The position numbers were made by a program, and so were the translations under genes. Under the pieces are notes generated by a model. That model ran no database searches. It had not been told where the DNA came from and saw only the letters and a list, made by a program, of their open reading frames with translations. From Sphagnum magellanicum (lineage: Eukaryota > Streptophyta > Sphagnopsida > Sphagnales > Sphagnaceae), in contig CM038918.1 in the NCBI GenBank assembly GCA_021904315.1, positions 682,001 through 746,000 on the forward strand: DNA of 64,000 nucleotides, given 5' to 3'. Shown piece after piece: positions 26,683-64,000 of the stretch (position 1 is the first letter of the stretch; the number at the start of each line of letters is the position of its first letter).

Positions 26683-26769
26683 AAAGAACAATCCTTACAT
26701 AATGCAAAATCAAATGATCTAGCGTATGCCACGTCGACATTTAAGTAGAATGCCACCTTCTAATTCCAT

Positions 26770-27990
26770 TTTGAGAAAACAATTAAGCGCTCGCCAAATG
26801 GTCCATTTCACAACCATTTTAGGAATACGACTTGGTAGCCACCAGATCACCAACCCTAAACCTTCGTGAGAAATTGATCTAGTGGTTGCTAGATCGTAAT
26901 CTTGAAACATCTTGAGAAAATGACTTGGCAGCTACAAGATTGTCATCTTGAAACAACTTGACAAAACAATCTGGCAGGTGCCAAGTTGTCATTTCAAAGT
27001 AGCTTGACAAAATGACTTAGTGGCCGCCAAATTGTCATTTTGAAGCAGCTCAAGAAAACAATATAGCAACTTGAGAAAATAATCTGGTAGTCACCAAAAT
27101 TGTCATCTTGAAGTAGTTCAAGAAAACAATGTGATGATTGCCACATTGTCATCTTGAAGCAACTTGAGAAAACGAGGTGGGGGCCGCTAGATCGTCATCT
27201 CGAAGTAGTTCGAGAAAACGACCTAGCGGCCACTAGATCGTCATCACAAAGCAGCTCGAGAAAACAAATCAACGACTGCCAGATTGTCATCACAAAGTAG
27301 CTTGAGAAAATGACATGGCGGTTGTTAGATCGTCATCATGAAACAACTAAAAAAAACAATGTTGCAGCTGTTAGATCATCATTTCGAAGTACTTTGCAGC
27401 CACTAGATCATCATCTCGAAGCAACTTGAGAAAATGACGTGATAGTTGCCAAATTGTCATCTTGAAGTAGCTCGAAAAAACGACCTAGTGGCTATTAGAT
27501 TGTCATTTTGAAATAGCTCGGGCAAACAACTTGGCGGCCCTTAAATTGTCATCTCAAAAGTAATTCTAAAAAACAACTTAACAATTGCCAGATCATCATC
27601 TCAAAAGAAGCTAGAGAAAACAACCTAGCGGCTACCAATTTCTCATTTCGAAATAGTCGTGAGAAAATGATCTGATGACAATTAGATCGTAATCTCGAAA
27701 ATAGTTCGAAAAAATGACCTAGCACTCGCTAGATTGTCATCTCAAAAACATTTCGAAAAAATAATCTAACAACTACCAAATCGTCATATTGAAACCATCG
27801 AAAGGAAATGATTTGGTAGCCATTAGATCATCCTTTCATTATGATCACAAAAAAAGGACTTGGTGGTTGCTAGATCATCCTCTCCCTATGATCTCGAAAA
27901 ACGACCTAGTAATTGTTAATTGTCCTCTTGCTACCATCGCAAGAAAATGACCTGGCGGCCACCTAATCGTTCCTCTTAGGATAATTGAAA
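26770..27990 (+). repeat. 46-47-bp degenerate minisatellite, roughly two dozen units
   Basis: Units follow the pattern gagaaaacgacctagcggcc, a short variable part, then agatcgtcatctcgaagcagct; for example starts near 27,210, 27,257 and 27,303. Units differ at many positions, mostly C/T and G/A, so the array is old. It has no sustained frame. The matching inverted array is 62,590-63,900. Confidence 0.85.
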
Positions 27991-27999
27991 GGATAGAGA

Positions 28000-30900
28000 C
28001 TTGGTGACCACCATATTATAAATCCTAGGACTATTGGAGTTTATCTCCAAATGATCAAGGATGACAATGACAGGCTAAATGGGTGAACCTTTATTGAAAA
28101 AGACTTCTAAGACATTATCAATAGCTAGATTACAATGCCTTCTTACATACATTCTTTGGTGTATTAGATATTTTAAGGAATGATAAAAGTCATTAAAGAA
28201 AAATACTCCAATTGATTATTTTTCATTGGATCAAAATATCCAGTACCTTGTAGCTGTTTAGAATATTGTCGAATGATAAATAATAGCATCCAAATTGACT
28301 TATTTTTCATGTTTATGAGTTTGGATCAATAAAAAATGACTACACAATTTTGGATTTGATAAAATGCCGCTTATATCACTTACTATCCATCTTTCACAGT
28401 GGGCTGCTGGGTGCTGGTTCACTGTGGCTCTTATAGAGCTCAAATTGCGAGTATAGGTGAAGCTACAATAAAAAAACTTGTACCTGAGTTCAAGAATTGT
28501 GTTTCAAGGTTCAAGTTTCAAATTAATTCTAACAAAAGGCTAGTTCCACGGTTTAGTTCTTGTGCTGATTCCATCTATTATGTATTTGTTCATGACTAAG
28601 TCACCAAGACCTGAACCTCTCAAGTTTAACACTGCAAATTAGACAACCCACAAACACTAATAGCAGGTTGTTCAAATTTCAATTCAATTCTAACAGAAGG
28701 CTAGTTCCATGGTTCAGTTTTTGTGCTGAGTCCATAAAAAAGAACAAGTCACGAAAACCTGAACCTCTCAAGCTTAATATTGCAAATTACACAACCTTTG
28801 AACACTAATAGCAGAAGCTGTCATTACTCTGCTAGCTCGTTAACAACTGTTAGGTCTTATTCGCCCTTTTGATCTTCATAGCCTCGACCATGGGCTCAAT
28901 ACAAGCTGGAATGGGCCAAACCCTGGCCAGTCTCGCTAGTGCATAGAACTATGGAGATGAGCTTTCAGTTCTGACAGTTGGAGTGAATTAAGTGTCATGT
29001 GGCAGCATAATTGATTGCTGTCCAGATGATCAGTTGGTCAGCTTGATGATATTATGCCAGTGCAAGTACATCCACAAATCCCAATCACATCCACGCCTTC
29101 CAGCTTTCATTCAGAAGAAATCAGTCAGTTTTGTAGCAACATGTTGAGGCTTAGCTTGCTTGTCCTTGTATACTTCTTCTCTATGCTCTTTTCCCCTTTC
29201 ATTCATTTGGACCTTACTGTTCATTGCCTGCTCTTTTGGCTTTGCCTACCAAGGCAAGGATATTGTGTTTAGATTCATTAATGTGTATAGTAGCTTAAGG
29301 TATTTTTTTGCCCCTAGGTAATAATAGGTCTTATTTTATATGAGGATTTTTGAAAGATGATATTTTGGCTTGTATTGAAACTTGAGCGTTGTTACAGAGT
29401 TACAAAATCTTGAAGGATTTTGGCTTCTTTTAAGGATTTTTTCTGAAGATTTTATGTTTGCATGGTGAAATATTTGAGTTTCCATAATTCTTCTTCTTTT
29501 GCCTTAAGATACTTCATAATGTGAATGGCAAGGCCACAATTGTGACACACCCCTTGTTTTATGTCCTTGGATACCAGTGTTGGACACAATTGGTCGGCTC
29601 TATTGTCTGGTTTTGCACCAAATCTATAACCTCGTTCTCATCAAGTTGCCTTTCTGCAACTGAATACAACAATCTCACTGAACACAAAAGAAAAGCCAAC
29701 AGGGGATAAAGGCTATGTAGGGCCAAATGTTACAAACACACCAAAATAGGAGGGAGAGTTAAACCCAAAGGCCTAATGCCCATTTTACACAAGGACCCAA
29801 TTCAAAATGGAGTAGTCCTAGCGGCCAAAAAATCAGAGTTGGGTCTGTTGGTTTTACACTAGGGCCTGAGCCAAAGAACCCAATAAATGACATGGCTATG
29901 GCCTCCGTGACCTTAATTACTTTGGTGCCAAATTCTTCAGCAGTGTTATCAGTGTTTTTCACTTCTGAGAAACATTTAATCATTTTTTTCAACAAATGAT
30001 CAAATGGGTTTTTTTGGGTACATTGTGTTTTTTCTATTTGACTAAATTTTGCAAATATTTTGGAATAAATTACCAATTTTTTTATAATCACCAGATTGAA
30101 AAAATAAACCATGGGCTATGCCATGAAAGGATAACAAGAATTGCATTGATGATTTGTTCATATTTTTGCCAATCTTAGCTGTCTAATTGAAGCAATATCT
30201 TAAAACTTGAGTTTTTATGAAAGATTCAAAAGAAAAAAAAATTGGATTTAATTAATGTTAGGCCAATTGGGGCATGTAAAGGCTTGGAACCTCTCTCCCA
30301 ATGTGCAGCTTCTCGCATATCTCTAGTTTGAGGAATGGAAACCTTTCTTCATTGTCATTTGGAAAAAAGAAAAATAATGATTGTGACCAGCCCACTCAAA
30401 GTAATAGTCCAATTAAACTTACATGTATCAACAATGGCCTCCAACCCTACAAAGAAAAAAAATCAACTATGACATTATGTCAATATAAGCAAGTTCATGG
30501 GAGCGTGATTATCATGTACTACCTTTCATTGCTTAAGTATATTTTTTATAATTTCAAGGTGAATGTATGAATGAGTTGCCCAATATTGGTGTTATAATGC
30601 AATTTTTTACAAGTTGATTTTGTTCTAAATCATTCAAGGGTGGATCAAAATCAATGTTTTATCAAATGGCCATTAAGTTTAAATTATCAATTAAAATATG
30701 AAGACATATATGTGATCATGTTGATAATTAATAGCACTAAAATAAATGGGTGAACTTTTGAAGTTGCAATATATTATGAACTAGTCTTTTAGTTGTGGGT
30801 TTATTTATGGACTTAAAAAAAAAAATCATTTAAAAATATTTTATTAGGTACTGAATATTCCTTGTAACAAATCATGAAAGAACTAAAAGTAAAATCATGT

Positions 30901-31030
30901 CAAAAAATATTTTGAAAAATCTAGTTATGAAATTTTTCATGGTCAAAATTGATGCATCATTTTGAAAGTCCATATTATTTTGGAAAATTTATTTTATTTT
31001 GAATTTGTGCACACATGTAAAAAATAGTGA
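28000..31030. other. Palindrome-arm DNA without a supported gene
   Basis: Short frames that recur in the other arm (29,054-29,272 and 30,301-30,570, +) owe their conservation to the duplication and show no motif. 28,395-28,800 holds two diverged copies of a segment with aactgaaccatgg-type words (in reverse on this strand) and cacccagcagccc next to gctggttcactgtggctc, a motif repeated at 37,740 and 38,075. No gene seen. Confidence 0.45.
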
Positions 31031-31337
31031 TACTATAATACCTTGATAGGTTTAACAGGAACTTGTCAAATAATTTATATATTTTGGGAATTGTAATTTA
31101 GTACTTTCATCTTGATTTTAAAATTTTGATAGGTACAAACTAAATATAATAAAACTACTTTCACTATCAAAAGTTTTCAATTGTCTTCTTGGTTGGATTA
31201 TCCTCATGAACTTGTACTATGATGGAAAGGGCAACCATAAATTTTGAATTATACAACATAATAAGCTGATTTTGGAAAAATCTAAACAATATTAAAAATA
31301 ATTTAATTTGTGCCAAATCCACCAAGGTACTATGGTA
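31031..31337 (+). mobile_element. ~305-bp MITE with taccttg/caaggta ends
   Basis: The ends resemble inverted repeats (actataataccttgataggttt and aaatccaccaaggtactatggta), related at the tips to the 199-bp MITEs at 39,452 and 55,991 but with a different interior. The palindrome partner is 59,290-59,596. It is non-coding. Confidence 0.55.
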
Positions 31338-32255
31338 TCTAATTGGGCCAAAACATAAATGGAAAAAACAAATCTTGAAATTGGTGGGTTGTCATTACCT
31401 AACTACTTTACCTAAGGTCAATTTCATCATTAAATAATTTATAAAATAATGGAATGAAATTTTCATGAAAATATGAAATTGAAGTGTTGAAAATCATCAT
31501 AATTATGGCAAGCTACTATTTGAATAATTTCATTCCTCATATGACAACGTCGTAATAGATAATGAAATAATAATTTCATATTTATAAAAATGAACTAATT
31601 TTTTGAAATAAACTAATTATTTATTTTTTCCATGTGGAAATTGACCTTGGGCTATATTATTTAATTACACTATGGCTTGAAAAAAAAGGAAATGAACTTA
31701 TGAAAATATATTCATTTGCCATTTTTAGTCCATTCATTCATGCATTCACCTTTGAAACTCTTTCATCATAATGATTTTGATTTATTATGGATTTCAAAAA
31801 TTGTTTCAGATGTATTGGAATCAATATTTTTTTTGTGAATGTTTTTGACAAAATGTGAATTTTTTTTGGGGCTATGACCCCTATAATGGCATTTAAAAAA
31901 AAATTGAATCAAATTACCAAAAAAACAAAGGTTTTGGACTAGGTTTGCAATATTAAAAAAACATGTTCTTGTAAGTCACCAAATACTAATAGCATTATAC
32001 TTTTTTTTCCTTTCCTATTTGCTACCATTTAATGTTAAATCCTTTTTGGGATGTTAGCTAATCATGATGCAACATCAAAAAATTGAAAAAACTAATCATA
32101 AATTATAACTATTGCAAAAAAAAATCATTATCATATTAATTATATTCTTAATTGTTTCATAAAGCTTGTCACACATGCCTAATATACTACCAATATATAC
32201 TTTGGAAAATGATGTGGCAATTTGATTATATCAAAATGTATTTTCTCATGGATGT

Positions 32256-35200
32256 ATCAACATGACTTAATAAAGTAGTACATAATTAATGCAAATATGT
32301 AAAATTACTAAAACATATCTCATGCATGCTCAAAATATTTCTTGGAAAACTAGTATGTTGATAATGTTGTCACACTACCCGACCTTATGGTCAAATTTGC
32401 TGTACATTAATTTAAAAACTGAGATGTTGAATTTTTTCAAAAATTTGAAGGCAACATTATGAGAGTTAAGGAAATTTCAAGACAACAAATTTATCTAATT
32501 TGCTGAAAATTCCAAATTGGCAAATGTGAAAACATAATAATTGTTGTATCCATGTCTCTATAAGTTGGAGCACAAAGAACTTGTATCACACAAAAAAATT
32601 GAAAATTTTTATATAAAAAGTGACTTGATTGAAAATAAAACATAGTGCGAAATTTGCAAAATTACAATCATGAAATAGCACAAAACTTCAAGGCACAGCA
32701 CACTTGGCCATTTTTTTTTATGCAATCTCATCCTTGATGGAAAGTTCCTCTAACTCTTGGTCTTCCACATCCTTGTTTGACATGTCACGATCATCATTAA
32801 ATTTTTAAAAAAAAGTCTTCTTTTTGAATTGTCTCTTGCACAAGTTGTCAAAATATTTAGATTCAATATGTGCTAAAAGCTATAAAAAAAAAAGTCTAAC
32901 TTGAGATGTTGAAAGCCCCCTTGCCGCAAAATTGATTCCATTCAACACTTCATTATCTAATCTAAACACAAAATAAGGTACATTCTCCTTTGTATCCCTT
33001 TTCCTTTCATGATGAATATGGCCATCAACATCATTGGTCCATAATGTTAAATTCTTGAAATGCAACAATTCTTGTCATTTGGTGACAAATGCCATGAAAA
33101 AGGCCAATGACATAATGATGTGGTGCATATTCTCATCCATGTTAAGATTTTAGGGTCAAGACAAAGCTTATTGAAATTCCCAAGAGGAGGAGAACAAGAA
33201 AGGGAGGAAGAAACAAGGAATAAATACATAAAAGAGGGTTCTTTTAACAAGCTAATGAACTTTACTGTACTTTTGGTTTTGGGCCCTCGGTATCCATTTT
33301 AGAATGGCATCAAGTTGGCCCAAGAATTCAAGTCAAAAAGCATACAATTGTTTTGGGCTTGGGCTTTAGTGTACACCATAAAGGGTATCCCAATCTCAAT
33401 TGCACCAATGGATTAAAAGGTTATATCAATTGGGGAAACCTAAGGGATGTGAGATGCTTGGTGCCAATTGGAATCCACAATCATGACAAAAAAAAAAACT
33501 AATAAAAATGCTCCATAAAATAATTACAATGGTTCCTCCCATGTTGAATGGAAAAAGGAAAATGAAAAAGACAAAGGTTCAAAAGTGTATAAGCCTTTGA
33601 ACAAAGAATAACAATTTATGATATTTGAATCAATGTTGAAACCCAATAATTGTTGAAAAGGAGGTTTGTGATGGGTTTGTGGCATTCCAATTAAACAAAG
33701 TTCTAACATTGTTATTGCCTTCAACTTGCCTCACACTAACTATCACACATTGCAATTATGCACCTTCTAATGTGTGACTTGTGGTTAAGTCATTGTTCAA
33801 GCCCAAAGTGGCATCATTCCTTGCAACCGTTGATTACTCATTTTATACTAGCTACTAGTTTTTTTTGGTCAAGTTTTACGATTTAGTCATTCAAGCAAAC
33901 AAACTTTGTCTTCATTCATTTTGTTTGGTGTTTCTAGATACTTTTAAATCATTTTAATATTACTTCCTTAGTTTCAATTTTCAGAAAAGGATATTATTGT
34001 GGTGTGCTATATATGTAGCAATGAGATTTAGCCAGGATGAACCTGGGTTGAACCCATTTCTCAAGGAGGGGCCCAATTGAGTCTTGCAATGTACCCTCAA
34101 AGAGACATGACCCATTCTTTTAGTGGGCTATTTTCATCAATCAAGATGGATATCATCCATCACACAAGTTCTGTGGACCCATCATATAAGAACTGATTCA
34201 GTCCATGTAGATGGTGAAATTATTAGAGGAGTGTCATTTGAATCTGATCTCTGTTCTTTAATGTGGGTTTGTTCTTAATCAATGGTAATTGAATTTTGAA
34301 TCAGTCATAAATTGTGCTTTTAAAAGGGAGTTAATTTCCCACTATCCAGCTTTTATGAGAGGCGAATTATTTGGGATTTGATAATTAGTATTTACAACTA
34401 AATTTGGTATTTAGGCACATTTTTGTATTGAAAACTCATTTTGCTTCTTCAATGGCTGACTTGATATCACTTAAATTGCTCTTGTATTCTTATTGTATAC
34501 ATATTGTAATTTGTATGATGTGCTTCACATAGGAACCATGAAAGACTTTGAGTCTATTTGGAGTATTGTGCAGTCATTTTTTAAAATGTATATTAGACAC
34601 AGGTTGAAAATGAAAATTTCACATTTAATGGAATTCAATATTTGAAAACTTTAGAGACAAAAGAAGTTTAATTTATTAAATATTTATTTTATTTCAAAAA
34701 AATTGTCATCTGCCTCCCTCGTCTGCCCACAACCATATGCACCTTTAGTTCTCCAAACTATGAACAAGAGAGATGCCTCCTGCAACATCCCTTCTCATGG
34801 TTATTTTTTAAAAAAAGAAAATAATAAATAGTATTAGTAAATAGTAAGTAATAAGTAAGAGTGATAGGTAAAAAATTTAGTAGTAATAAATAGTAAATAA
34901 GAAATAAGAAATAATAGTAAATAAAAAGTAAGAATAAAAATTTAAAACATTAAACTTACCGTTTATGAAAGCAAAAAATGAAAAGTTAAATTTTTTAAAA
35001 TTAAACTTATTGTTTATGGAGGCAGCTGCCATATTAGGGTTAGGGGTTAGAGCACTAATCGTAACCCTAATGTGATGGCCATCACCCTTTGGGGTTAGGG
35101 TTGAAATTTAATTAGAAAAAAGTCCAAACTCCCTCTTTAGTCCTATTTGCTCCTACTTGTCATTACAAATCCAAATCTTTGCTCTCTTCTATTCTCAGGC

Positions 35201-37321
35201 ACTCTTGTTTTTTTTAGATTTAAAAAATCTTATTAATTGATTTATATTTTTTGTTATTCTTAGTTCTAATTTTGATTTTTGCTTTGTTTTGTAAGGTTTG
35301 TAGTTTGTAATTTTTAAGTTGTGTGTTTTTTTTTTTTCCTTGCTTGTTCTCTCCCCCTCTTTGCTTTTGCAAGTAGTCTTTGGAGCTACAATCAGTAAGC
35401 AAAAGCTAGCAAGTAAGGTAAGTCTTTTTTTTTTATTATTTTCATTTTTTATTTGATCATTTCTGAAGTTTTTAATTTTTAGTTTCAATTTCTCAATTTT
35501 TTGTACAATGCGATAGGGGTAAACTGACCCATCACCAAACACAAGCTAGTAAATGAACACTTGTTTAAATTTTCCTTATTTCTGTTTCATTTTTAATGAT
35601 TTAAAATGTTATGAGAGTGCTACCTCAAGTTCTATAAATCATCTTTGGAGTGTAAATGAAAAAAAATAAAGAAAAAATAACAAGAAGAAAAATAATTTTC
35701 AATTTATAAAATGCTTTTTTCTTATATTTCGACCCTTATTACTTTCAAAGTTCATAACAATATCATTTTTTTTGTTCACTTTAAATGATTTAAAGTTTAA
35801 ATCCTATAGGAACACCACCTTAAGTTCTACAAATCATCTTAGAACTCTAATAGCAACAAAGCAATATGCAAAGAAATTTTTGGGTGTTGAGGAACTTTGG
35901 GGGGCAATAACTTTCTCATTTTAAATCCGTTTTCAATGATTTTTAGTGCCTTGGATGCATCAACAGGAGGTTTTCAAGTTCTGTTTGCACATTAAAGACA
36001 AATGAACGCTTCCCTGAGCGCTATTTGAATCCGGAAAACACTGAGTGCTTAAATGTATCATGACTTGCTTTTCTACTGCTACAATTTATTTTTGTTCAGG
36101 AAAGGGAAAGAAGACAAGAAATTGTCTCTAAAACTTGTAAGTTCTATTCTTTAATTTTTTTTTTTATAAATAGAATTAATCCTTTGAGTTATCTTCCTTT
36201 TTTCTACATTTTTTAAAAAACATTCTTTGTATTTGATTTGTAATTTTGTAGATAGTTTGTTTTATTAATATGTTTAAACTTATTTTTAACATTTCATTTA
36301 TTTTATTTGTAGGTTAGCTTTGATTGTTGGAAAGAAATTGGTGTTTGTTTAAGGGGGCAATAATAATTTTTATTTAGTTTTTATTTTTTGCATTAGGCTT
36401 AGAAATGAGTTATTGTCGTTATCTTTGTAAATGCTTTCTCTTTTTGAAAAAATGCTTTTTCTTCTTGAAATTGTAAAAGAGACGTTGGAAGAATTTGAAG
36501 AGGAGTTTGAAAGGGAAAAAATTATAGATATGAACTCTTTATATTGAAGCAATTTTTTTTTGGTCATTTATTAATTTACTTAGTTCATCATTTCTTATGA
36601 TTATAAGAAAAGAAACACAAAAGAAACCCCCAAAAAAATTAAAATATAAAATATAAGAAACCTTGATTTATGAGAACCGATTTGTGAGATCCAGCTTTGA
36701 AAATAGACAGTTCAAAATTTTGTAAGACCTGTTGGCCCTGAAAATCACCCAACCAGAATTTTTTCTAAATTCTGAAAACCGATGTAATTCTCAAAATGGA
36801 AATTCTTTTAAAAAAAGAAGAACCGAGGTAGTTCTCAGAACCTACCCAAAAAACCGCACCCAACGGTTCTCACAAAAAGTGAGAACCACCCAACACTGGA
36901 ATATAGCATGCTACCTAGTATACCATACAAGAAGCTGTTTACACTAGACAGCTTGGGCCATGGCCTATAGAACCTCATGGTACCCTACTTTTTGGATGAG
37001 ACCATGAGAAAACCCATGGGATGTGGCTCAAGGGCCTTTGTTCACAGTGTAAACTCAATTTGGACCAAAAGAATTGATCACATGATTTTTTTCAATAAAA
37101 AATTATTTTGTTTAATTTTTTTTTGGAAATGTGGTTGCCTTAATTTTTTATTCATCTAGTATTTTTTAATTTTTTTTTCCTCTCTTCCGTTCTAAGTTTT
37201 CTCTTTGATTTTCTTTTTTTTCATTCTTTTTTTTGTGTTTGATTTTTTTCCCCTCTGTGCACCTTTCATAAACAACCACTCATCAAGGATGAGAGAGAAA
37301 AAAAGAATATTTGTTATGATA
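32256..37321. other. 5.07-kb segment present only in the left palindrome arm
   Basis: In the right arm the sequence equivalent to 32,255 joins directly to the equivalent of 37,322 (at about 58,378/58,379), with the junction inside short tat/gtat-like microhomology. Neither clear terminal inverted repeats, long terminal repeats nor a target duplication are seen at the two edges, so a microhomology deletion from the right arm fits as well as an insertion here. The segment is very AT-rich, includes simple (TAAA/AGTA)-type runs at 34,800-34,960 and a dispersed repeat copy at 36,660-36,900, and has no supported gene. Frames such as 35,195-35,542 (-) are low-complexity Lys/Asn-rich shadows. Confidence 0.75.
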
Positions 37322-37927
37322 TCTATGCATTGGTGTTTGTATATGTTCATTCAACAAGTGATAAACATTAATGGGCAACAATTTTATAACTAGCCACCAA
37401 AAATTGCCTTCAATTTTATCTTTCAAAAAAATAATAAACATGAATCAAATTCATGAATCAACAATTAAGATTATTTTGAAACCCATGGGCCCTCGCTATT
37501 TTCATTAGGCCCATCTCTTTGAAGCAGGCCTGAAAATATATCCCAAAGGCTGAACCAACAATATCCACAACTATCCAGGATTTGAACAACTTTTTTCATC
37601 CAAAGTCCTTTGCTTGAGCTTGGGCCCTAATCCTAGTGTAAACCCAAACTGACCACCCTTCATAGTTTGAACCAATGAAGGATTTTTAATTTGTAGGGTG
37701 AAATTAGGGGGTTAGATGTAATTTAAAGGCTCATTTAATGAGCCAGAGTGAATCAGCATGCACCCAGAGAACATAGTGTGGGTGATCGATCACTCATAAA
37801 TGCTCTGGCCACAAATAGCCAGCACAGCTCTGCTGTCCCTGGCCCAATAGCCAGGGCATCCTTCCACAACGCCCACAGACCTTTTTTTCATAAAATTATA
37901 AAATTTTCATCAAATGGAAGGTCTGTA

Positions 37928-38052
37928 ATTACTGGAGTAGTTGATTGAAATGTTATTTAACTCAACATTGTGGTCAAATTACTGGAGTAGTTGCTTGAAA
38001 CCTTATTTAACTCAACATTGCGGTGAAAATTCCTGGAGTAGTTGCTTGAAAC
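37928..38052 (+). repeat. 50-bp VNTR, three units in the left arm
   Basis: Unit starts at 37,928, 37,978 and 38,028 (attactggagtagttg, then ttatttaactcaacattg). The right-arm partner 57,601-57,770 has four units, so copy number changed after the arms formed. Confidence 0.85.
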
Positions 38053-39451: not shown

Positions 39452-39650
39452 CCCTACTACCTTGGCCAATTCGACACTAATTATATTATTTTCAGGAATG
39501 TTGAAATTTTCAAAAATTATTTCTTCGAAATCAAAAAATATTGTGAAGGATAATAGTGAAAATTTAGGGATATGCCATTTGTTGAAATGATTTTTTCAAA
39601 ATTAATTAGCTATTCAACAGACATATGTTGAAATGGCCAAGGTACTATGG
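39452..39650 (+). mobile_element. 199-bp MITE with ccctactaccttggcc / ggccaaggtactatgg ends
   Basis: The inverted ends are about 16 bp with few mismatches. Copy A has no element here: its flank reads straight through gtgtgatatttcatc. Comparison of empty and filled sites suggests a short TA-type target duplication, as in Stowaway/mariner-like MITEs, but the edge is ambiguous by a few bases. The element is also present in copy C (55,991-56,188). Confidence 0.75.
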
Positions 39651-40756: not shown

Positions 40757-41034
40757 TATATAGTAACCACTTACATTTCCTACCTACTTACCTATGATAC
40801 TTACCCACTTACATAGTAGGTACTTAGTTAGTGTGAGGGGGAAGTAGGAGGGTTTATAGGATAGGTCATGTAGGTGGAACCTTGATATTTAACTCAGTTG
40901 TGGTTCATCCACAACCGAGTGATAGTGGGTCTCCAATGGATGGTGCGCTAGGCTAGTGTGTACTGGGTCTCACATAATTTGCTTTACATCATGCAGGAAA
41001 AACATTGCATTTGACAACCACTTACCATCAATTA

Positions 41035-49578: not shown

Positions 49579-49599
49579 TCTTAGTTTATGTTCTTTACT

Positions 49600-51790: not shown

Positions 51791-53134
51791 TAATATGATT
51801 GTGCTTGGCAATACCCCATTTTGGGGGATGCCAAATAATATGCCAGACTCAGAGATCAGGACCTCATTTCCCCTAATTTTGAGTTTTCCTCCAACTTTGC
51901 AGCCTGCTAATTTTGAAATTATCAAAATCATCATCAATATTAACCAAAACGTTTGGACAGAAAAGCTTCTTAAAATTTGTCTCATTACATTTCTGCTACA
52001 TCAAATTGATCAACTACCAACCTATGTATACTAATATGGTGAAAAACACAAAGGCTTATATCTCCACTGCTATTGAACTAATGCTAACCTATCAGATGAG
52101 CAATAAATCAGCAGTTCACCAAAGTTCGAAGCAAAGATACTTAATAGGAATGATTATTTAGGTACAACAGGAGTGATCTGTTAGGTGTGGTAATTCCAAC
52201 ACCACAAGTGCTGTAAGGAAGATATGATAGGTATATGCAAATACATTACTGTGTTGTCCACAGGATCAGACCAATTAGTTGAGTTTCTTTTGTCTGAGAA
52301 TGGTCTTATTGTTCAATCTTGCAGTGGGCAGTGTGAGGTAGTTATATGGCATCGCGAAGAAGAACTCAAGGTTTGTGTCTCTTATGGAAAATGGAGCTCA
52401 GGATGAGATCAAGATCCAAGAGTAACATTATATGTTGAACCGTGGTCATGAAAGTCTCTAAAGTCAGAATGTGAGTGTCTGAAATTGTTAACAATATTCA
52501 TGTGCTCCCATTTTTGGTTGCACTATCCAAGATGTTTGTTTATGCAAACAATTTTCTCGTTAGCATCTTGAGGAGCAAGGCCACCTTGCTCAAAAATCTT
52601 GAGAGAGTTACACAATTGAGATTATGAATGGACATAAAACATGCAAGTCACTCTCAAGTGACAATAAAATTATAAATACAAATGAGAAAAACATTGGGGA
52701 GTATCAACAACTGTATGTCTCAGTAGCATCATCCCATTGTCTTTAAATGTGGTGGATGTGAAACATGGTTTGTTTCATATGGCTCTGCTAAACCAAATTA
52801 GAATTTGAACGTTGTAGTTGTCATTTCTAGGTATGAACTGCAACCCAACAGCTTTCAGTCAGGAAAGATTCATATTGTGACATGAATAGGATAAGGCCAT
52901 TGCCGCAATTGACAAAGAGATTTGAAACCTGAAACTCAGTCCACAGGGAAAATGATATGTGCAATGCATGATCAAATCAAGTGTAATGTTTCTGAGTGTG
53001 GCTCAGACATGAACACTGTCTGATGATTTCATGAAAGTCCTTTTTACAATATAGTTTGCTGTCAGCACTTCTTTTGATTGGCCACACCACAGAGAGAGAA
53101 AAGTGGTAGGAGTCATTTTGTGGATCCTTTGCAA

Positions 53135-54625
53135 TGTGAAATCACAGTTTGGAGCAGCTAAATGAATTGCTCTGGCAATCTCCTTGTGTGCAAGAAGGCG
53201 ATACAATTTTCTTGGTTGTTTTAATTGCCTTGGTGTGCACACAGTGTGAGGAGTACATGGCAAATGGCAAATCAGGTCAAGTTCATTACTGGGTGCAAGG
53301 GAAATGCATGGTAACAAGCATGAGAAGACACAAAAGGTGGAACTTTGGCTTTGCTACTGTTAGAACTCCCATGACTGGAAGCAGAGACAGCAGCAATGGC
53401 ACATGGTGATTACAAAATAGCACATTCTTTTGAGGGTTTCAAGGCTTGGGAGGTATCATGTTGGATGTGGAATTAATCCCAGAAGAATGGAAATTGTCCT
53501 ACAAATGCAATATGAAGACATGACTCCAGAAAGATTCACATGTTTTTCGGTTGCTCAAATGTCAATGCAGTTGTAAACTAGCAGTTCAAGAGCAAGCATG
53601 CTGATGAACCAACTAAATCAAAGTGGTTTTGAGTTGGACTTCCTAGTGTGTATTAGGCTCATCAACATGTACTATACCACATATAGGAGCATGAAGGAGA
53701 CTTGGAGAGTGTTCAACTACATGGCCAATAATCACAATTCCTCAACTGCTAGAATTCCAGATGATATGTGAATTATGAGCAAGAACAGAATGCGCCTGGC
53801 AGTGTTGTAGGGCACTTGAAAGACAGCCCATGTGTTCATGAACAGATCATATGAAGCAGTTGCAGGTCCAATCACTTTCTTTGTAGAGAAAATTCAAAAA
53901 AATGTAGGATACTTGTGTGATGTTCACCAAGACCTACTCAAATTGTGGTCTCTTGGACTGCCACCATCTCATGTGAGATGTGGACAAGAGCAGAGACAAT
54001 TTGTGCAACAGAAAGTTGGGCAGCCAGACCTGGTCAATTTCCTGGTGACATTTGTGGGGATTGTGAATACAGAGTGTGTCAGTTTATCAGCACTTGCAGA
54101 TCAGTCAGTGTAAATACTAGTCTGATGTCTCTGTGCAGTAGACTTGTAAACATGTATGTCAAATGTGACAGCATGGTTTGGATGTTTCAAAAGTGCTTCA
54201 AAAGATGATTGCACGAAATGTGGCACATTTGGAGGACTTCCCAGGGATATTTTGGGATGTATGTTTGCCTTCTCTCAGCTTGTAGCAATCTGGGCTGATG
54301 AAGTAATGCCTGTGCCTCTTTGATTCCATGGACATTGGAGGTATAATAGTCTCGGAGTATTTCTCACTGCCAATGTTTGAGAAAGAAAGCAGTACGTTGC
54401 AAGAGACTATCCTCAATTTGTTGTCTCAGTTCACTCAAGAGTATGTTGCAGTAACTATAGTCTCAGTGCCAAGGTTTGACAGAGAAAGAAAAGGGTGCAA
54501 AGAAAAGCCTTGGTGGCACTTGGACTGAAGTGAATAAAAAAAGGTCCATATGTTTGCAGTAGATGATCCAGAGCAGCTGCAAACCATTGAAATCTATGCA
54601 GACTTCAAGAGATCATCTGGATAGA
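53135..54625 (+). pseudogene. Decayed PLS-class PPR gene with E motif, copy C
   Basis: This is the best-preserved copy. In order on the plus strand: about 53,600-53,735 gives a PPR (SGFELDFLVCIRLINMY, then SMKETWRVFN); 53,832-54,113 gives HVRCGQEQRQF and LVTFVGIVNTECVSLSAL; a shifted frame at 54,110-54,208 gives SLCSRLVNMYVKCDSM; about 54,480-54,625 is the E-type end (VHMFAVDDPEQLQ, then IEIYADFKRSSG, then stop). Known plant PPR proteins of this class bind organellar transcripts. This one cannot make a protein because the frame shifts at least twice and stops intervene. No DYW deaminase domain is seen downstream. Confidence 0.75.
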
Positions 54626-54882
54626 TAATTGATAGTAAGTGGTTGTCAAATGCAATATTTTTCCTGTGAGACCCAGTACACACTAGCCTAGCGCACCATC
54701 CATTGGAGACCCACTATCACTCGGTTATGGATGAACCACAACTGAGTTAAATATCAAGGTTCCACCTACATGACCTATCCTATAAACCCTCCTACTTCCC
54801 CCTCACACTAACTAAGTACCTACTACGTAAGTGGGTAAGTATCATAGGTAAGTAGGTAGGAAATGTAAGTGGTTACTATGTA

Positions 54883-55191
54883 TAGGAGAAGGGCCTGAGT
54901 ACAGGCCCTTTCGTGATTTGAGATCTGTGCCCAAGGCCGGTAGGCCGAGGGAACAGATCGAAAATCACAAAAGCGCCTATACCTAGGTCCTTTTCCTTCG
55001 TAAAGGAGAGCTGGGTTTGTTCACTTTTGAGAAATAGTGACAGGCTGGCTGGTACGTTCCGCTGGTCAGAAGATCCCAGTATAGCCTGGCTGGTACTTCC
55101 ACCGCAGAAGATCCTTCTTGCTGAAAACATGTTTCTTCAGGCAGGTAATGGAACTGAAAATACAAAGGAAAAATGTAGGCAGTGCTTTGCG
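54883..55191 (-). mobile_element. 309-bp insertion, copy-C allele of the 310-bp element
   Basis: Flanked by a perfect 6-bp duplication (tatgta at 54,877-54,882 and 55,192-55,197, which is tacata on the other strand). Same element and same site as 40,447-40,756. Confidence 0.78.
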
Positions 55192-55990
55192 TATGTAGGT
55201 AAGCTACTTGGTGGCTACCAGGTAGGTAGATCCATGTGCATGGTTGGTAAAGAGCTTACCACTTCCGTTAGATATGGGACAGGAATACAATGAAAAAGTC
55301 TCACACTATCCATCCTTCAAGGGGTGCTGGCTCCCCCATCAAACTATAGGCATGTCAATGTGGCGCCATGCACAATTCTGCACAGTTCCGCAGTTGTTCT
55401 GCAAAAGAAGAACTCAAGCTCATGTCCTGCTGCAGAACCCAAAAAAAAAACACAAAAATTATGTTTTGTTGTAGAACCAAAAAATACAACATTTATGTTC
55501 TGCTGCAAGTAGCATAATTCCAACTCAGCACCAAGTTAGTACAACAACAACTATGTTTTGAGAAATCACTTCAATGTTTATTTAGTTGCACTGGAATAGC
55601 TGTGAATGTCAAAGGACTTGAGGAACTTGATCTGAATGGATTTTCACAAGCCATGGTATGCATGCATTTTTCGATTCACATTCTCCTTCTGTAAATGGTG
55701 GGTTATAAGATTCTCAAATTGGGTGGAATTCTGAAATAATGGTTATGTAAGTTATGCGTGCAATGACCGCAAACTCTCTCAATAGGTGGGGAATATATTT
55801 ATTCATAGTATATGAGTTTTCACAATAGTTCAAGAAGGGGAAAACAATACCAATGATGAAATATCATGCAAGTTTTTTGCATCTTTTTGTACAATTCTCT
55901 CACCATATATACTTGGCCAATTTTCATACTTATAATATGTGAATTTTCACAATGGTTCAAAAAGGAGAAAACAAGACGAATCATGAAATA

Positions 55991-56188
55991 CCATAGTACC
56001 TTGGCCATTTCAACATATGTGTGTTGAATAGCTAATTAATTTTGAAAAATCATTTCAACAAATGGAATATCCTTAAATTTTCACTATTATCCTTAACAAT
56101 ATTTTTTGATTTCAAAGAAATAATTTTTGAAAATTTCAATATTCCTGAAAATAATATAATTAGTGTTGAATTGGCCAAGGTAGTAGGA
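55991..56188 (-). mobile_element. ~198-bp MITE, copy-C allele
   Basis: Inverted counterpart of 39,452-39,650: begins ccatagtaccttggcc and ends ttggccaaggtagtagg. Confidence 0.75.
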
Positions 56189-57600
56189 TATATATATCAC
56201 ACACAAGTTTCTTTTGCATCTTTTTGTACAAGTTACAAATTACACAGCCTTTAATCTACAACACCAATCAGGGCTGAGTGGTTTTATGTACCTTAGTTGT
56301 AGTTTGATGGATCTTGTCACCACAAAGTTCTCAATTACATCCAAGAGTTGTTCTGAAGATTCACAACATGTAAATATTCCAAACAATATCCCTAAAGTTG
56401 TTTGCATCTATGCTCCCCAAAAAATACCTAGAAAGTCTCAGACCACTTGCACAACATATTCCCCACAAGACACGAGCCATGGAATTGACAAAATTTTTAG
56501 GACAAAAGAGCAGTTGTTGTTGTTGTCATCTCAACTACATAATGTAATAAGTCAAGACAGGTCCAATGGAGTTGTAGATGGTTGCATATGTCCCTTTAAG
56601 AGAGTGGGTGTCTCCATTACAATAGCTTTTGGGTTCGTAATAATAATAAGTCCAATGGCACATAGCCTACTCATATATTCTTAGTAGTATATAATAAATC
56701 CCCAACCTCCCAAACACCCTCTGCCAACAGACACTATAATGTATCCATTATTCCATTTTTAGAAGGAAATAATGACACAGAGGCAAAGCCAACTTGAGAC
56801 TTTCAAATGCAGGTGGAACAAAAATTCCAATGTTGGGTTGCTTGTATCTTCCCTTGTTTGTCTCTTTGTGTGGGAAACACAAAATTCTTTGTCAAAGTGG
56901 CAATGTATGTATGTGTGTATGCACATCTTACACTTCCATCAGATTCCTATTGGTGATTTAAGGTCACTTTTGGGAATTATGTGATCACAGCATTCACCAG
57001 TGCACCATCTATTGGAGACAAGTTATGACTCTGTTGAGCAGATGAACCTCAACTATGTAGAACCTTGGTAACTTTAACCTCTAAACCCTTCTGTTCCCTC
57101 CTCCTAGTACCTATGCAATGACCTACATAAGTGGTTAAATATCATAAGCAAGTAAGTAAGGAATGTAAGTGGTTACTATGAAAATAAGTAAGTATTAGGT
57201 GAGGCACTTTGGATGAACTGACACCCACATTGATACCATGGTAAAAATTTCAAGATCCATCTAAATTGTTTCTAAAATTTACAAATATCCCATGCTTATA
57301 CTAAATTAGGGTTTTTCAATTCAAAGCTAACATTTGAAGGGCTTAATATGGTCATTAGGAGGCGTCACTTACAAACATGATGTACCAACCTGCATACAGG
57401 TTCACCCTGGCCTCCTCCGACTAAGTAAGTAAATGCATCTGGATGCATTGTCAGTACATGGATAACTACCAGGGTTAGGTGTGCAACAAGAATAGAACAA
57501 AAACATTGTTTTCTATACACACATCATCCACCCTGCATGGTGCACTGGTGGGTGCTGGTTCACTCTGGCTCCTTAAATGAACCATAAAATGATGTTTCAA

Positions 57601-57770
57601 GCAACTACTCCAGTAATTTTCACCGCAATGTTGAGTTAAATAACGTTTCAAGCAACTACTCCAGTAATTTCACCCCAATGTTGAGTTAAATAACGTTTCA
57701 AGCAACTACTCCAGTAATTTCACCCCAATGTTGAGTTAAATAAGGTTTCAATCAACTACTCCAGTAATTA
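57601..57770 (-). repeat. 50-bp VNTR, four units in the right arm
   Basis: Units start at 57,601, 57,652, 57,702 and 57,752 (gcaactactccagtaatt then caatgttgagttaaataa). The left-arm partner has three. Confidence 0.85.
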
Positions 57771-58378
57771 CAGACCTTCCATTTGATGAAAAATTTATAA
57801 TTTTATAAAAAAAAGGTATGTGGGTGTTGTGGAAGGATGCCCTGGCTATTGGGCCAGGGACAGCAGAGCTGTGCTGGCTATTTGTGGCCAGAGCATTTAT
57901 GAGTGATCACCCCACACTATGTTCTCTGGTCGCATGCTGGTTCACTCTGGCTCATTAAATGAGCCTTTAAATAACATCTAACCCCCTAATTTCACCCTAC
58001 AAATTAAAAATCCTTCATTGGTTCAAACTATGAAGGGTGGTCAGTTTGGGTTTACACTAGGGTAGTTTAAGGCCCAAGCTCAAGCAAAGGACTTTGGATG
58101 AAAAAAGTTGTTCAAATCCTACATGGATAGTTGTGGGTAATGTTGCTTCGGCCTTTGGGATATATTTGCAGGCCTGCTTCAAAGAGATGGGCCTTATGAA
58201 AATAGCAAGGGCCCATGGGTTTCAAAATAATCTTAATTGTTGATTTATGATATTTGATTAATGTTTATTATTTTTTTGAAGGATAAAATTGAAGGCAATT
58301 TTTGGTGGCTCCTTATAAAATTGTTGCCTTTTAATGTTTATCACTTGTTGAATGAACATATACAAACACCAATGCATA

Positions 58379-61300
58379 CATCCATGAGAAAAAACATTTT
58401 GATATAATCAAATTGCCATATCATTTTCCAAAGTATATATTGGTAGTACATTAGACATGTGTGACAAACTTTATCAAACAATTAAGAATATAATTAATAT
58501 GATAATGATTTTTTTTTGCAATACTTATAATTTATGAATAGTTTTTTCAATTTTTTGATGTTGCATCATGATTAGCTAACATCCCAAAAAGGATTCAACA
58601 TTAAATGGTAGCAAATAGGAGAGGAAAAAAAAGAATAATCCTATTAGTATGATGACTTGCAAGAACATGTTTTTTAAATATGGCAAACCTAGTCCAAAAC
58701 CTTTTTTTTTTGGGTAATTTGATTCAATTTCTTTTTAAAATACCATTATAGGGGTCATAGCTCCAAAAACAATTTCACATTTTGGCAAAAAAATTCACAA
58801 AAAATTATTGATTCCAATACATCTGAAACAATTTTTGAAACCCATAATAAATCAAAATCATTATGGTGAAAAAGTTTCAAAGGTGAATGCACGAATGAAT
58901 GGAGTAAAAATGGCAAATGAATATATTTTCATAAGTTCATTCCTTGTTTTTCAAGCCATAGGGTAACTAAATAATATAGCCCAAGGTCAATTTCCACATG
59001 GAAAAAATAATTAATTAGTTTCTTTCAAAAAATTAGTTCATTTTTATAAATATGAAATTATTATTTCATTATCTATTACGACATTGTCATGTGAAGAATG
59101 AAATTATTCAAATTGTAGCTTGTCATAATTATGATGATTTTCAACACTTCAGTTTCATATTTTCACTAAAATTCATTCCATTATTTTATAGATTATTTAA
59201 TGATGAAATCGACCTTAGGTAAAGTAATTAGGTAATAACAACCCACCAATTTCAAGATTTTTTTTCCATTTATGTTTGGGCCCAATTAGGTACCATAGTA
59301 CCCTGGCAGATTTGGCACAAGTTAAATTATTTTTAATTATTTTTAAATTTTTCAAAAAAAATTTATTATGTTGAATAATTCAAAATTTATGGTTGCCCTC
59401 TCCTTATAGTACAAGTTCATGAGGATAATCCAACCAAGAAGACAATTGAAAACTTTTGGTAGTGAAAGTAGGTTTATTATATTTAGTTTGTACCTATCAC
59501 AATTTTAAAATCAAGATTAAGGTACTAAATTACAATTCCCAAAATATATAAATTATTTGACAAGTTATTGCTAAACCTACCAAGGTATTATAGTATCACT
59601 ATTTTGTACATGGGTGCACAAATTCAAAATAAAATACGTTTTTCAAAATAATATGGACTTTCAAAATGATGCATCAATTTTGATCATGAAAAAATTCATA
59701 ACTAGATTTTTCAAAATATTTTTTGACATGATTTTACTTTTAGTTCTTTCATGATTTGTTACAAGGAATATTGAGTACTTAATAAAAATTTGTAAATGAT
59801 TTTTTTTAAAAAGTCCATAAATAAACCCACAACTAAGAAACTAGTTCATAATATGTTACAACTTCAAAAGTTCACCCATTTACTTTAACGCTATTAATTA
59901 TCAACATGATCACATATATGTTTTCACATTTAAATTGATAATTTAAACTTAATGACCATTTGATAAAATATTGATTTTGATCCACCCCTTGAATGATTTA
60001 GAACAAAATCAACTTGTAAAAGATTGCATTATAACACCAATATTGGGCAACCCATTCATACATTCACCTTGAAATTATCAAAAATATACTTAAGCAATGA
60101 AAGGTAGTACATGATAATCACATTCCGATGAACTTGCTTATATTGACATAATGTCATAGTTGAATTTTTTTCTTTGTAGGGTTGGAAGCCATTGTTGATA
60201 CATGTAAGTTTAATTGGACTATTACTTTGAGTGGGTTGGTAACAATCATTATTTTTATTTTTTCCAAATGACAATGAAGAAAGGTTTCCATTCCTCAAAC
60301 AAGAGAGATGCAAGAAGCTACATTGTGAGAGAGGTTCCAAGCCTTTACATGTCCCAATTGGCCTAACATTAATTAAATCCATTCTTTTTTCTTTTGAATC
60401 TTTCATAAAAACTCAAGTTTTAAGATATTGCTTCAATTAGATAGCTAAGATCGGCAAAAATACGATCAAATCATCAATGCAATTCTTGTTATCTTTCATG
60501 GCATAGCCCATGGTTTATTTTTTCAATTTGGTGATTATAAAAAAATTGGTAATTTATTCCAAAATATTCTCAAATTTTAGTCAAATAGAAGAAACACAAT
60601 TTACCAAAAAATTCCCATTTTTTCATTTGTTGAAAAAATGATTAAATGTTTCTCAGAAGTGAAAAACACTGATAACACTGCTGAAGAATTTGGCACCAAA
60701 GTAATTAAGATCATGGAGGCCATAGCCATGTCATTTACTGGGTTCTTTGGCTCAGGCCCCAGTGTAAAACCAACAGACCCAACTCTGATTTTTGGCCACT
60801 AGGAATACTCCATTTTGAATTGGGTCCTTGTTTTAATTGGGCATTAGATCTTTGGGTCTAACTCTCCCTCCCATTTTGGTGTGTTTTGTAACATTTGGTC
60901 CTATATAGCCTTTCTCCCCTGTTGGCTTTTCTTTTGTGTTCAGTGAGATTGTTGTATTCAGTTGCAGAAAGGCAACTTGATGAGAACTAGGTTATAGATT
61001 TGGTGCAAAACCAGACAATAGAGCCAACCAATTGTGTCCAGCACTGGTATCCAATGACATAAAACAAGGGGTGTGTCACACTTGTGGCCTTGCCATTCAC
61101 ATTATAAAGTATCTTAAGGCAAAAGAAGAATTATGGAAACTCAAATATTTTACCATGCAAACATAAAATCTTGAGAAAAAATCCTTAAAGAAGCCAAAAT
61201 CCTTCAAGATATTGTAACTCTGTAACAACTCTCAAGTTTCAATACAAGCCAAAATATCATCTTTCAAAAATCCTCATATAAAATAAGACCTATTATTACC

Positions 61301-62589
61301 TAGGGGCGAAAAAATACCTTAAGCTACTATACACATTAATGAATCTAAACCCAATATCCTTGCCTTGGTAGGCAAAGCCAAAAGAGCAGGCAATGAACAG
61401 TAAGGTCCAAATGAATGAAAGGGGAAAAGAGCATAGAGAAGTTGTATACAAGGACAAGCAAGCTAAGCCTCAACATGTTGCTACAAAACTGACTGATTTC
61501 TTCTGAATGAAAGCTGGAAGGCGTGGATGTGATTGGGATTTGTGGATGTACTTGCACTGGCTTAATATCATCAAGCTGACCAACTGATCATCTGGACAGC
61601 AATCAATTATGCTGCCACATGACACTTAATTCACTCCAACTGTCAGAACTGAAAGCTCATCTCCATAGTTCTATGTACTAGCGAGACTGGCCAGGGTTTG
61701 GCCCATTCCAGCTTGTATTGAGCCCACGGTCGAGGCTATGAAGATCAAAAGGGAGAAGAAGACCTAACAATTGTTAACGAGTTAGCAGAGTAATGACAGC
61801 TTCTGCTATTAGTGTTCAAAGGTTGTGTAATTTGCAATATTAAGCTTGAGAGGTTCAGGTTTTTGTGACTTGTTCTTTTTTATGGAATCAGCACAAAAAC
61901 TGAACCATGGAACTAGCCTTATGTTAGAATTGAATTGAAATTTGAACAACCTGCTATTAGTGTTTGTGGGTTGTCTAATTTGCAGTGTTAAACTTGAGAG
62001 GTTCAGGTCTTGGTGACTTAGTCATGAACAAATACATAATAGATGGAATCAGCACAAGAACTAAACTGTGGAAACAGCCTTTTTGTTAGAATTAATTTGA
62101 AACTTGAACCTTGAAACACAATTCTTGAACTCAGGTACAAGTTTTCTTATTGTAGCTTCACCTATACTCGCAATTTGAGCTCTATAAGAGCCACAGTGAA
62201 CCAGCACCCAGCAGCCCACTGTGAAAGATGGATGGTAAGTGATATAAGCGGCATTTTATCAAATCCAAATTGTGTATTAATTTTTTATTGATCCAAACTC
62301 ATAAACATGAAAAATAAGTCAATTTGGATGCTATCATTTATCATTCGACAATATTCTAAACAGCCTACAAGTTACTAGATATTTTGATCCAACGAAAAAT
62401 AATCAATTGGAGTATTTTTCTTTAATGACTTTTATCATTCCTTAAAATATCTAATACATCAAAGAATGTATGTAAGAAGGCATTGTAATCTAGCTATTGA
62501 TAATGTCCTATAAGTCTTTTTCAATAAAGGTTCACCCATTTAGCCTGTCATTGTCATCCTTGATCATTTGGAGATAAACTCCAATAGTC
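58379..62589. other. Right-arm DNA without a supported gene
   Basis: Inverted counterpart of about 28,000-32,255. Frames such as 60,056-60,406 (-) are duplicates of meaningless left-arm frames. It contains the MITE listed at 59,290. Confidence 0.45.
59290..59596 (-). mobile_element. ~305-bp MITE, right-arm allele
   Basis: Inverted counterpart of 31,031-31,337, with ends taccatagtaccctggcaga and ctaccaaggtattatagta. Confidence 0.55.
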
Positions 62590-63900
62590 CTAGGATTTAT
62601 AATATGGCGGTCGCCAAGTCTTTATCCTTTCAATTGTCCTGAGAGGAACGATTAGGTGGCTGCCAGGTCATCTTCTTGCGATGGTAGCAAGAGGACAATC
62701 TAACAATTACTAGGTCATTTTTCAAGATCATAGGGAGAGGGCGATCTAGCAATCACCAAGTCCTTTTTTTGTGATCATAATGAAAGGATGATCTAGTGAC
62801 TGCCAAATCATTTCCTTTCGATGGTTTCAATATGACGATTTGGCAATTGTTAGATTATTTCCTTGAGATGTTTTTGAGATGACAATCTAGCGAGTGCTAG
62901 GTCATTTTTTTGAACTATTTTTGAGATTACAATCTAATTATCGTCAGATCACTTTCTCACGACTGTTTTGAAATGACAAATTGGTAGCCGTTAGGTTGTT
63001 TTCTCCAGCTTCTTTTGAGATGATGATCTGGCAGTTGTTAAGTCGTTTTTTTTGAATTACTTTTGAGATGACAATTTAGGGGCCGCCAAGTCGTTTTCCC
63101 GAGCTACTTCAAAATGACAATCTAGTAGTCGCTAGGTCATTTTTTCGAGCTACTTCGAGATGACAATTTGGCGGTTATCACGTCATTTTCTCAAGTTGTT
63201 TCAAAATGATGATCTAGCGGCTTGCAAAGTCGTTTTTTCAAACTGCTTCGAAATGGACGACCCTGGTGGCCACAAGTCGTTTTCTCAAACTACTCTCAAG
63301 ATGATGATCTAATGGCCACCATGTTGCTTTCTCCAATTGTTTCATGATGACGATCTAACAACCGCCATGTCGTTTTCTCAAGCTACTTTGTGATGACGAT
63401 TGGCGGTCTTTGGGTTGTTTTCTCGGCTACTTCGTGATGACGATCTGGTGGCCACCTGGTCGTTTTTTCGAACTACTTCGAAAATGACGATCTAGTGGCC
63501 CCCCACCTTGTTTTCTCAAGTTGCTTCAAAATGACAATGTGGCAGTTGCCACATTGTTTTTCGAGCTACTTCAAGATGATGATTTGGTGGCCCCCACATC
63601 ATTTTCTCAAGTTGCTACATTGTTTTTCTTGAGTTGCTTCCAAAATGACAATCTAGTGGCCATTAAGTCGTTTTGTTGAGCTACTTTGAAATGACAACTT
63701 GGCTACCGTTAGATTGTTTTCTCAAATTGTGTTTCAAAATGACAATCTTGTAACTGCAAAGTCATTTTCTCAAGATGTTTAGAGATTACGATCTAGCAAC
63801 CACTAGATCATTTTCTCACGAAGGGTTAGGGTTGGTGATTTGGCAACTACCAAGTTGTATTCCTAAAATGGTTGTGAAATGGACCATTTGGTGAACACTT
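62590..63900 (-). repeat. 46-47-bp minisatellite, right-arm array
   Basis: Inverted counterpart of 26,770-27,990, with units of the type gacgatctagtggcc ... tcgttttctcgagctacttc. Individual units differ between arms, so the arrays have drifted since duplication. Confidence 0.85.
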
Positions 63901-64000
63901 AATTGTTTTCTCGAAATGGAATTAGAAGGTGGCATTCTACTTAAATATCGATGTGGCATACGTAGACCATTTGATTTTGCATTATCTAAGGATTGTCCTT

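Follow-up and report, generated by a model that had tools for sequence, protein, structure and literature searches.

The stretch of Sphagnum magellanicum DNA analysed here (the window: 64,000 bp, positions 682,001 to 746,000 of contig CM038918.1, assembly GCA_021904315.1; contig coordinates are prefixed C12) contains a giant inverted repeat, whose left and right arms face each other across a spacer holding a gene, gene B. Very probably this palindrome marks a breakpoint left by a conservative inversion that took place recently within a tandem array of directly repeated units, each a gene followed by an arm. Two junctions are reciprocal combinations of two ancestral adjacencies, and in the part of the array that was fetched the sequence between them is reversed relative to the array outside. 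In what follows, B denotes the spacer gene with the right arm, C the unit at C12:817,779-842,560, and u493 and u914 the arm units at C12 about 493 and 914 kb; unit A is a decayed unit within the window (Table 1).

Junctions of the probable inversion and array orientation

Minus-strand self-BLAST of the window and its flanks aligned positions 26,669-42,602 with 64,014-53,135 at about 94-96% identity, the outer VNTR (variable number tandem repeat)-rich stretch reaching 87% only. Several kilobases matching at about 95% are not due to chance. The first-pass annotation, made from the window alone, had described a giant inverted repeat around a spacer, continuous save for one 5.07-kb difference; its ends inside the window agree with ours to within 1 bp, and a single large difference within the window was indeed found, 5,066 bp of the left arm (32,258-37,323) that are unmatched in the right arm.

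The spacer and right arm match copy C from the palindrome junction to a run of N beyond the window. To the left of C12:817,779, copy C continues into upstream sequence common to three other places and to copy E; since C is continuous there with the upstream sequence of other copies, window position 42,603 is the new junction. From the inverted near-identical block, the partner breakpoint of an inversion of about 96 kb was forecast before its sequence was seen, at about C12:628,737, with gene 3′ flank on its left side ending at the equivalent of window 53,134. A reciprocal junction was found at C12:628,731/628,732, 95.9 kb from the palindrome junction. On its left, C12:625,010-628,731 matches window 49,433-53,133 at 97.2%, and the matches of copy C, u914, u493 and A stop at the identical base; on its right, sequence from C12:628,732 onward matches that from 817,778 read backwards at 99.75%. 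The ancestral adjacency reads ...CCTTTGCA A TGTGAAATCACAG..., the left junction ...CCTTTGCA/TTTTATTAAATTTC... and the right junction ...TTTCACA/C/ATAGTTC.... Neither junction shows homology; one base was lost and one filler base added. The ancestral joint between upstream region and gene is unbroken in C, D and E, and that between 3′ flank and arm in the right-arm unit, u493, u914 and A.

The orientation of the array agrees with these junctions. Eleven full-length gene copies, all on C12, ten on the plus strand and one on the minus strand, were identified with a 641-bp query taken from an exon of the spacer gene, every one of the 16 candidates being scored; six further matches were short or partial. 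The sole minus-strand copy, at C12 692.0 kb, lies inside the interval 628.7-724.6 kb, and un-flipping this interval places 11 of 11 copies on the plus strand. The inner arm (window 37,400-42,602) has other C12 copies at about 461, 493, 531, 567, 684, 735, 828 and 914 kb. Among the best 40 of 5,227 candidates, which makes the count a lower bound, there are at least nine arm loci including the query, seven outside the interval on the minus strand and two inside it on the plus strand. Repeat pairs (at least 500 bp, at least 80% identity) were surveyed over 284 kb (C12:622-858, 884-922 and 490-500 kb); the pairs overlap and are non-independent, and direct pairs with starts less than 1.5 kb apart were removed. 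Pairs linking inside to outside are mostly inverted (167,882 bp in 79 pairs, versus 12,116 bp in 11 direct pairs), pairs wholly outside mostly direct (167,860 bp in 64 pairs, versus 5,765 bp in eight inverted pairs), and pairs wholly inside direct in 9,530 bp (eight pairs) versus 5,886 bp inverted (five). No pair in this survey spans a breakpoint.

An inversion-free origin would have the upstream block and the B block inserted separately, by template switching, beside existing units. Each block has a near-identical counterpart within C12:792.7-842.6 kb, as such copying and pasting predicts, but it demands two independent insertions with complementary ends that happen to agree with the orientation of most repeats in the 95.9-kb interval, where a single inversion accounts for everything. 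We hold this origin to be exceedingly improbable. A plain tandem duplication starting at C12:724,604 is rejected, since the upstream sequence of other copies runs unbroken into the copy at 817,779.

Relationship of the two arms

A maximum-likelihood tree was built over 5.2 kb of the inner arm, comparing four other arm units and unit A with those at 461, 531 and 567 kb left out. With A as outgroup, its topology was ((left arm, u493)100, ((right arm, C)100, u914)98). Left and right arms differ at 188 of 5,093 sites (3.69%) and the left arm and u493 at 163 of 5,162 (3.16%). The right arm differs from u914 at 58 of 5,114 sites (1.13%) and from C at none of 5,166. Among two-state sites, 95 unite the left arm with u493, five unite it with u914 and 19 separate the right arm and C from the rest. 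Among the four other arm units compared, the closest relative of the left arm is thus the unit at C12:493-500 kb and not the right arm. By this comparison the arms are not sisters, each being nearer another unit of the array.

This bears directly on a fold-back (hairpin) inverted duplication, in which one event made both arms and divergence followed in place. Such an event would produce the geometry observed, which is all that speaks for it, and its arms would be each other's closest relatives, which these are not: 95 two-state sites place the left arm with u493 against 14 that place it with the right arm and C, and the right arm equals C at all 5,166 sites. The reciprocal nature of the left breakpoint and the direct array formed by the remaining gene copies also speak against it, and we give it virtually no credence. 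The annotation had supposed that the palindrome survived long enough to gather its substitutions in place. That view is replaced by one in which the arms diverged earlier, in the direct array, and were brought together by an inversion with its reciprocal breakpoint 95.9 kb away.

Whole copies of the 5.07-kb segment missing from the right arm, at about 95%, lie at C12:498,267-503,295 and 918,631-923,637 (best 40 candidates scored), and in u914 and u493 the segment adjoins the arm within the sequence fetched; copy C lacks it too. Because the segment is kept in the left arm, u493 and u914, the difference is a deletion in the lineage of the right arm, C included. The alignments flanking it overlap by 3 bp, a possible microhomology at the deletion site.

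A transposon carrying the arms was considered and rejected, since the long matches of two arm pieces (best 40 candidates for each) all lie on C12; the exceptions are a dispersed 310-bp repeat at about 40.45-40.76 kb and, within the 5.07-kb piece, matches of about 70-90% at scattered places.

A 94.1-kb tandem duplication and the quality of the assembly

With 50 kb of flank added on each side to trace the repeat outside the window, it extends beyond the right end in pieces (13,044-26,505 against 81,017-64,006). The right arm is interrupted at 67,349-77,348 by exactly 10,000 N, which most likely represent a scaffold gap; the first bases beyond match left-arm 18,914-18,696 at 94%, so that the arm continues there.

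The stretch from 42,604 to 67,348, which runs past the right end of the window, matches C12:817,779-842,560 at 99.63%, with 17 mismatches and 61 gap openings, unevenly spread. There is no difference in 42,604-44,708, then a patch at 44,709-45,021, then a single substitution at 51,163; from 60,789 to 67,348 the density of differences climbs, chiefly through single-base indels. Single-base events make up 51 of the 61 indels, 37 of those 51 within runs of three or more. Further parts of the same duplication match C12:759,356-763,920, where the contig starts to the right of the N run, to 853,435-858,000 (99.67%), and C12:789,909-792,852 to 884,001-886,944 (100%). C12:796,292-817,778 matches the inverted stretch 650,225-628,732 at 99.89% (15 mismatches in 21,495). 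Copies lie 94,079-94,092 bp apart, and if this 94-kb offset holds across the gap, the N run represents about 10.87 kb, the counterpart of C12:842,561-853,427. Over C12:858-884 kb, copy identity is judged from equal scores of gene pieces only. The genome may carry more than two 94-kb copies, collapsed into two.

Examined in 250-bp windows, the repeat in the middle of the duplication is a hybrid. To the left of C12 about 792.6-792.85 kb, its identity with 884-886.9 kb is 100% and with the repeat near 654-656 kb it ranges over 95-100%; to the right, it shares 99.6-100% with the repeat at about 647-654 kb, as against about 92-100% with 887-895 kb. Each side of the central repeat thus corresponds to one flanking repeat, the sides changing at about 792.6-792.85 kb, a pattern that would be expected for a tandem duplication by unequal crossing over (non-allelic homologous recombination, NAHR).

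The same near-identity raises the question of whether the end of the contig (42,604-67,348) is redundant or chimeric, a copy of C12:817,779-842,560 wrongly joined to the left arm. The block is bounded exactly by the junction and by the 10,000-N run, and its differences from C increase toward that run, mostly as 1-base indels, as an artefact might. Evidence to the contrary can be summarised as (i) a reciprocal junction lies 95.9 kb off, with N-free sequence between and matching cut points, which independent chimeras would not produce; (ii) repeat-induced mis-joining does not explain junctions set, as both of these are, in non-homologous DNA; (iii) the 18.2 kb beside the junction, about one read length, is well polished, which would fit several reads anchored in the left arm crossing it; (iv) no other assembled copy shares more than 97% with a 641-bp stretch containing the patch; and (v) the contig right of the N run has only the later part of the first duplicate, and this block supplies the required earlier part. 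We therefore regard an artefact as very unlikely.

Nor are the arms likely to be two haplotypes of one locus wrongly joined, a case the annotation had named as its own refutation. PMC9946827 describes S. divinum (formerly within S. magellanicum, and probably the species sequenced here) from a haploid genotype, with 439 Mb in 20 chromosomes, assembled by MECAT from PacBio continuous long reads (CLR) of DNA sheared to 20 kb, polished with ARROW, and with contigs ordered by S. angustifolium genes. With a haploid source, the simplest haplotype mis-join drops out; in addition, the arms have different closest paralogues and the junctions fit each other near base for base.

Several observations weigh against the inversion. 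Fourteen two-state sites unite the left arm with the right arm and C, and the left arm is barely nearer u493 (3.16%) than the right arm (3.69%). The 3′ flank of gene F is nearer B/C (97.2%) than u493 (92.3%), and the array units are therefore mosaics. The orientation rule has exceptions in 24 of 175 repeat pairs, all at or below 91.9% identity. The right breakpoint lies near a contig end whose last 6.5 kb are poorly polished, the patch at 44,709-45,021 is unaccounted for by the proposed history, and the whole case is drawn from one assembly of one genotype.

Order and age of events

We propose that the palindrome arose in steps from an old direct array on C12, with units of the form gene on the plus strand, then arm on the minus strand. 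Unequal homologous recombination between direct repeats about 97% similar, flanking one unit, would then have produced the 94.1-kb tandem duplication; the near-identical copies and the hybrid can be read directly, and the crossover itself is what we infer from them. Two breaks would have followed, one of them separating the 3′ flank of a gene from its arm and the other falling a short way upstream of gene B. The 95,872-bp piece between them would have been flipped and rejoined without homology, and the two reciprocal junctions suggest end joining as the repair route. Through the flip, an arm that was already 3.7% different would have come to face the B-unit arm across gene B, creating the palindrome.

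In the second copy of the duplication, the upstream region is joined to the twin of gene B, and the halves of the first copy lie at opposite ends of the inversion. Because these halves, near-identical to the joined second copy, sit at the inversion ends, parsimony suggests that the duplication preceded the inversion. The arms diverged as separate units of the array, and their 3.7% divergence is therefore older than the palindrome. The palindrome is younger than a duplication with about 0.07% divergence: substitutions between duplicates number 15 in 21,495 sites in the upstream part, nine in 18,194 in the gene and arm part (eight of them within the patch) and none in 2,842 at the far end. A literature search for a moss substitution rate gave no usable figure. 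At a moss rate of about 9e-9 substitutions per site per year, the duplication would be of the order of 40,000 years old and the arm divergence of the order of 2 million. Cross-mapped polishing and gene conversion would push down the age of the duplication, and only the order of events is firm.

It is conceivable, although we lean slightly the other way, that both the duplication and the inversion are recent enough to be polymorphic in S. divinum to this day, perhaps confined to the clone that was sequenced. If so, this pseudo-lipase/GTPase array would be a fast-evolving cluster whose copy number and orientation vary between plants, like plant immune-receptor clusters. A function for the palindrome is neither needed nor in evidence.

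The spacer gene and other features

Gene B encodes a Lipase_3 domain (Pfam, 2.9e-11), a TIG-like exon below threshold, and a GTPase-like part for which no Pfam match of significance was found. By eye, the latter contains GAEDIGKST, DFPG and NKVD, corresponding to P-loop, DxxG and NKxD motifs. Among chains of known structure, class 3 lipases are the closest by sequence (best E 0.00045), with EDS1 next (0.006). The gene resembles the EDS1/class 3 lipase family in this Lipase_3 match and weak EDS1 match, and differs from it in lacking the serine of the lipase motif (GHSxGG) and in adding the P-loop GTPase-like part. An active class 3 lipase carries its catalytic serine in GxSxG; that serine is missing from the four copies for which exon 1 was available, which read GHAVGG (B, C and D) or GHGVGG (E). 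The annotation had placed an intact gene in a 10.5-kb spacer. The spacer length stands, and eight exon pieces are free of stops in B, partly by construction since they were read from B by eye, and are open in copy C also; the gene is likely to be intact, its model being only partly resolved at the splice sites and for exons in the interval 45.3-46.9 kb. Its products are probably membrane-linked lipase-like/GTPase proteins, judging from sequence.

The family to which gene B belongs, a serine-less Lipase_3 with a hydrophobic stretch and a P-loop GTPase-like part, has copies across C12:453-904 kb. A genome search found no second-exon match of similar length outside C12, and a literature search gave no match for lipase-GTPase fusions. 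In unit A, the match to exon 1 is absent and exon 2 carries two stops. The 641-bp stretch of gene B with the patch has a best match of at most 97% among the other assembled copies; the patch could stem from gene conversion, the donor copy being missing, or from a polishing error.

The upstream region of the gene (42,604-43,400) has relatives on many chromosomes at about 72-94%, the longer ones at 74-82%, and is probably part of a dispersed mobile element. A second copy of it begins at C12:814,416; between that copy and a truncated 5′ gene fragment ending at 804,077 lies a sequence of about 10.3 kb (C12:804,078-814,415), whose other copy sits in the inverted segment.

The arms had been said to carry no functional gene, and no recognisable gene was found in them: in a Pfam scan of 30 open reading frames (ORFs), none of the 18 in the arms reached the curated cut-off, shorter ORFs being unscanned. 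A tRNA scan gave no lead. A sequence of about 310 bp at 40,447-40,760 is a dispersed short repeat within the arms, with at least 31 copies at 86-90% on many chromosomes. The telomere-repeat patch that had been mentioned exists if two CCCTAAA words at 41,186-41,206 were meant, and is tiny; the pair is missing from the right arm and u914. Five single TTTAGGG words occur outside the arms, at 12,282-12,511. Beside unit A, a fragment at 11,135-11,596 matches DUF659 (1.5e-32), a domain associated with hAT-type transposases.

Table 1. Positions of the features discussed, in window coordinates unless prefixed C12
Feature	Position	Strand or orientation	Remark
Part of the probable inverted segment within the window	1-42603		whole segment C12:628,732-724,603, 95,872 bp; remainder left of the window
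Unit A, decayed gene copy and inner arm	540-10999	-	80-93% to pieces of 44,244-56,815; orientation fits the inverted segment
Left arm	26669-42602	+	arm-arm homology starts further out, at 13,044
Segment missing from right arm, 5,066 bp	32258-37323	+	part of the ancestral unit, deleted in the B/C lineage
Probable right inversion breakpoint (palindrome junction)	42602-42604		arm ...TTTCACA, filler C (1 nt), ATAGTTC...; partner C12:628,731/628,732
Spacer, 10,531 bp	42604-53134	+	start of near-identical block B; contains gene B and 3′ flank
Gene B	43579-49411	+	Lipase_3, weak TIG-like exon, hydrophobic stretch, P-loop GTPase-like part
Patch	44709-45021	+	8 substitutions and 5 indel events versus copy C in otherwise almost identical 18 kb; creates no stop
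Right arm	53135-64000	-	outside the window: on to 67,348, N run, then pieces in 77,349-81,017
Start of poorly polished contig tail	60789-64000 (on to 67,348)		single-base indels increase toward the N run
Repeat piece	26684-27396 vs 64000-63286	inverted	87.2%, minus-strand self-BLAST of window
Repeat piece	27391-32257 vs 63230-58376	inverted	94.6%, minus-strand self-BLAST of window
Repeat piece	37324-38059 vs 58378-57638	inverted	94.0%, minus-strand self-BLAST of window
Repeat piece	37927-41423 vs 57719-54253	inverted	95.0%, minus-strand self-BLAST of window
Repeat piece	41484-42602 vs 54255-53135	inverted	96.0%, minus-strand self-BLAST of window
Outer repeat piece	23,133-26,505 vs 67,348-64,006	inverted	flank-extended comparison
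Outer repeat piece	15,630-18,321 vs 80,327-77,583	inverted	flank-extended comparison
Outer repeat piece	13,044-13,610 vs 81,017-80,450	inverted	flank-extended comparison

Comparison with known systems

The type of event is already known; the history is unusually complete. Literature titles and the openings of abstracts name no such locus, which is no proof that none is in print. What the locus offers is a readable rearrangement in two steps, an apparent unequal crossover followed by an inversion probably sealed by end joining, and this in an unusually composed gene family. It also shows how a palindrome can be misdated: arm divergence (3.7% here) can far predate the palindrome if the arms come from a pre-existing array, and a survey dating inverted repeats from the identity of their arms would label this one old.

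Tandem duplication by unequal crossing over between direct low-copy repeats is a known kind of event, and the 94.1-kb tandem copies with a hybrid repeat in the middle differ from it in nothing of kind; the near-zero divergence alone is notable. The moss recombination rate is described as high in PMC9946827.

Inversions by end joining within tandem gene clusters or segmental duplications share with this locus the reciprocal, near base-perfect junctions, the flipped segment and the flanking copies turned face to face. They differ in that here the breakpoints lack homology despite a repeat-rich region, and the by-product resembles a giant palindrome with a central gene. The palindromes of mammalian Y chromosomes likewise have long arms and a shorter spacer. 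Their arms are kept nearly identical by arm-to-arm gene conversion, whereas the moss arms are about 4-5% apart, each nearer another unit of the array.

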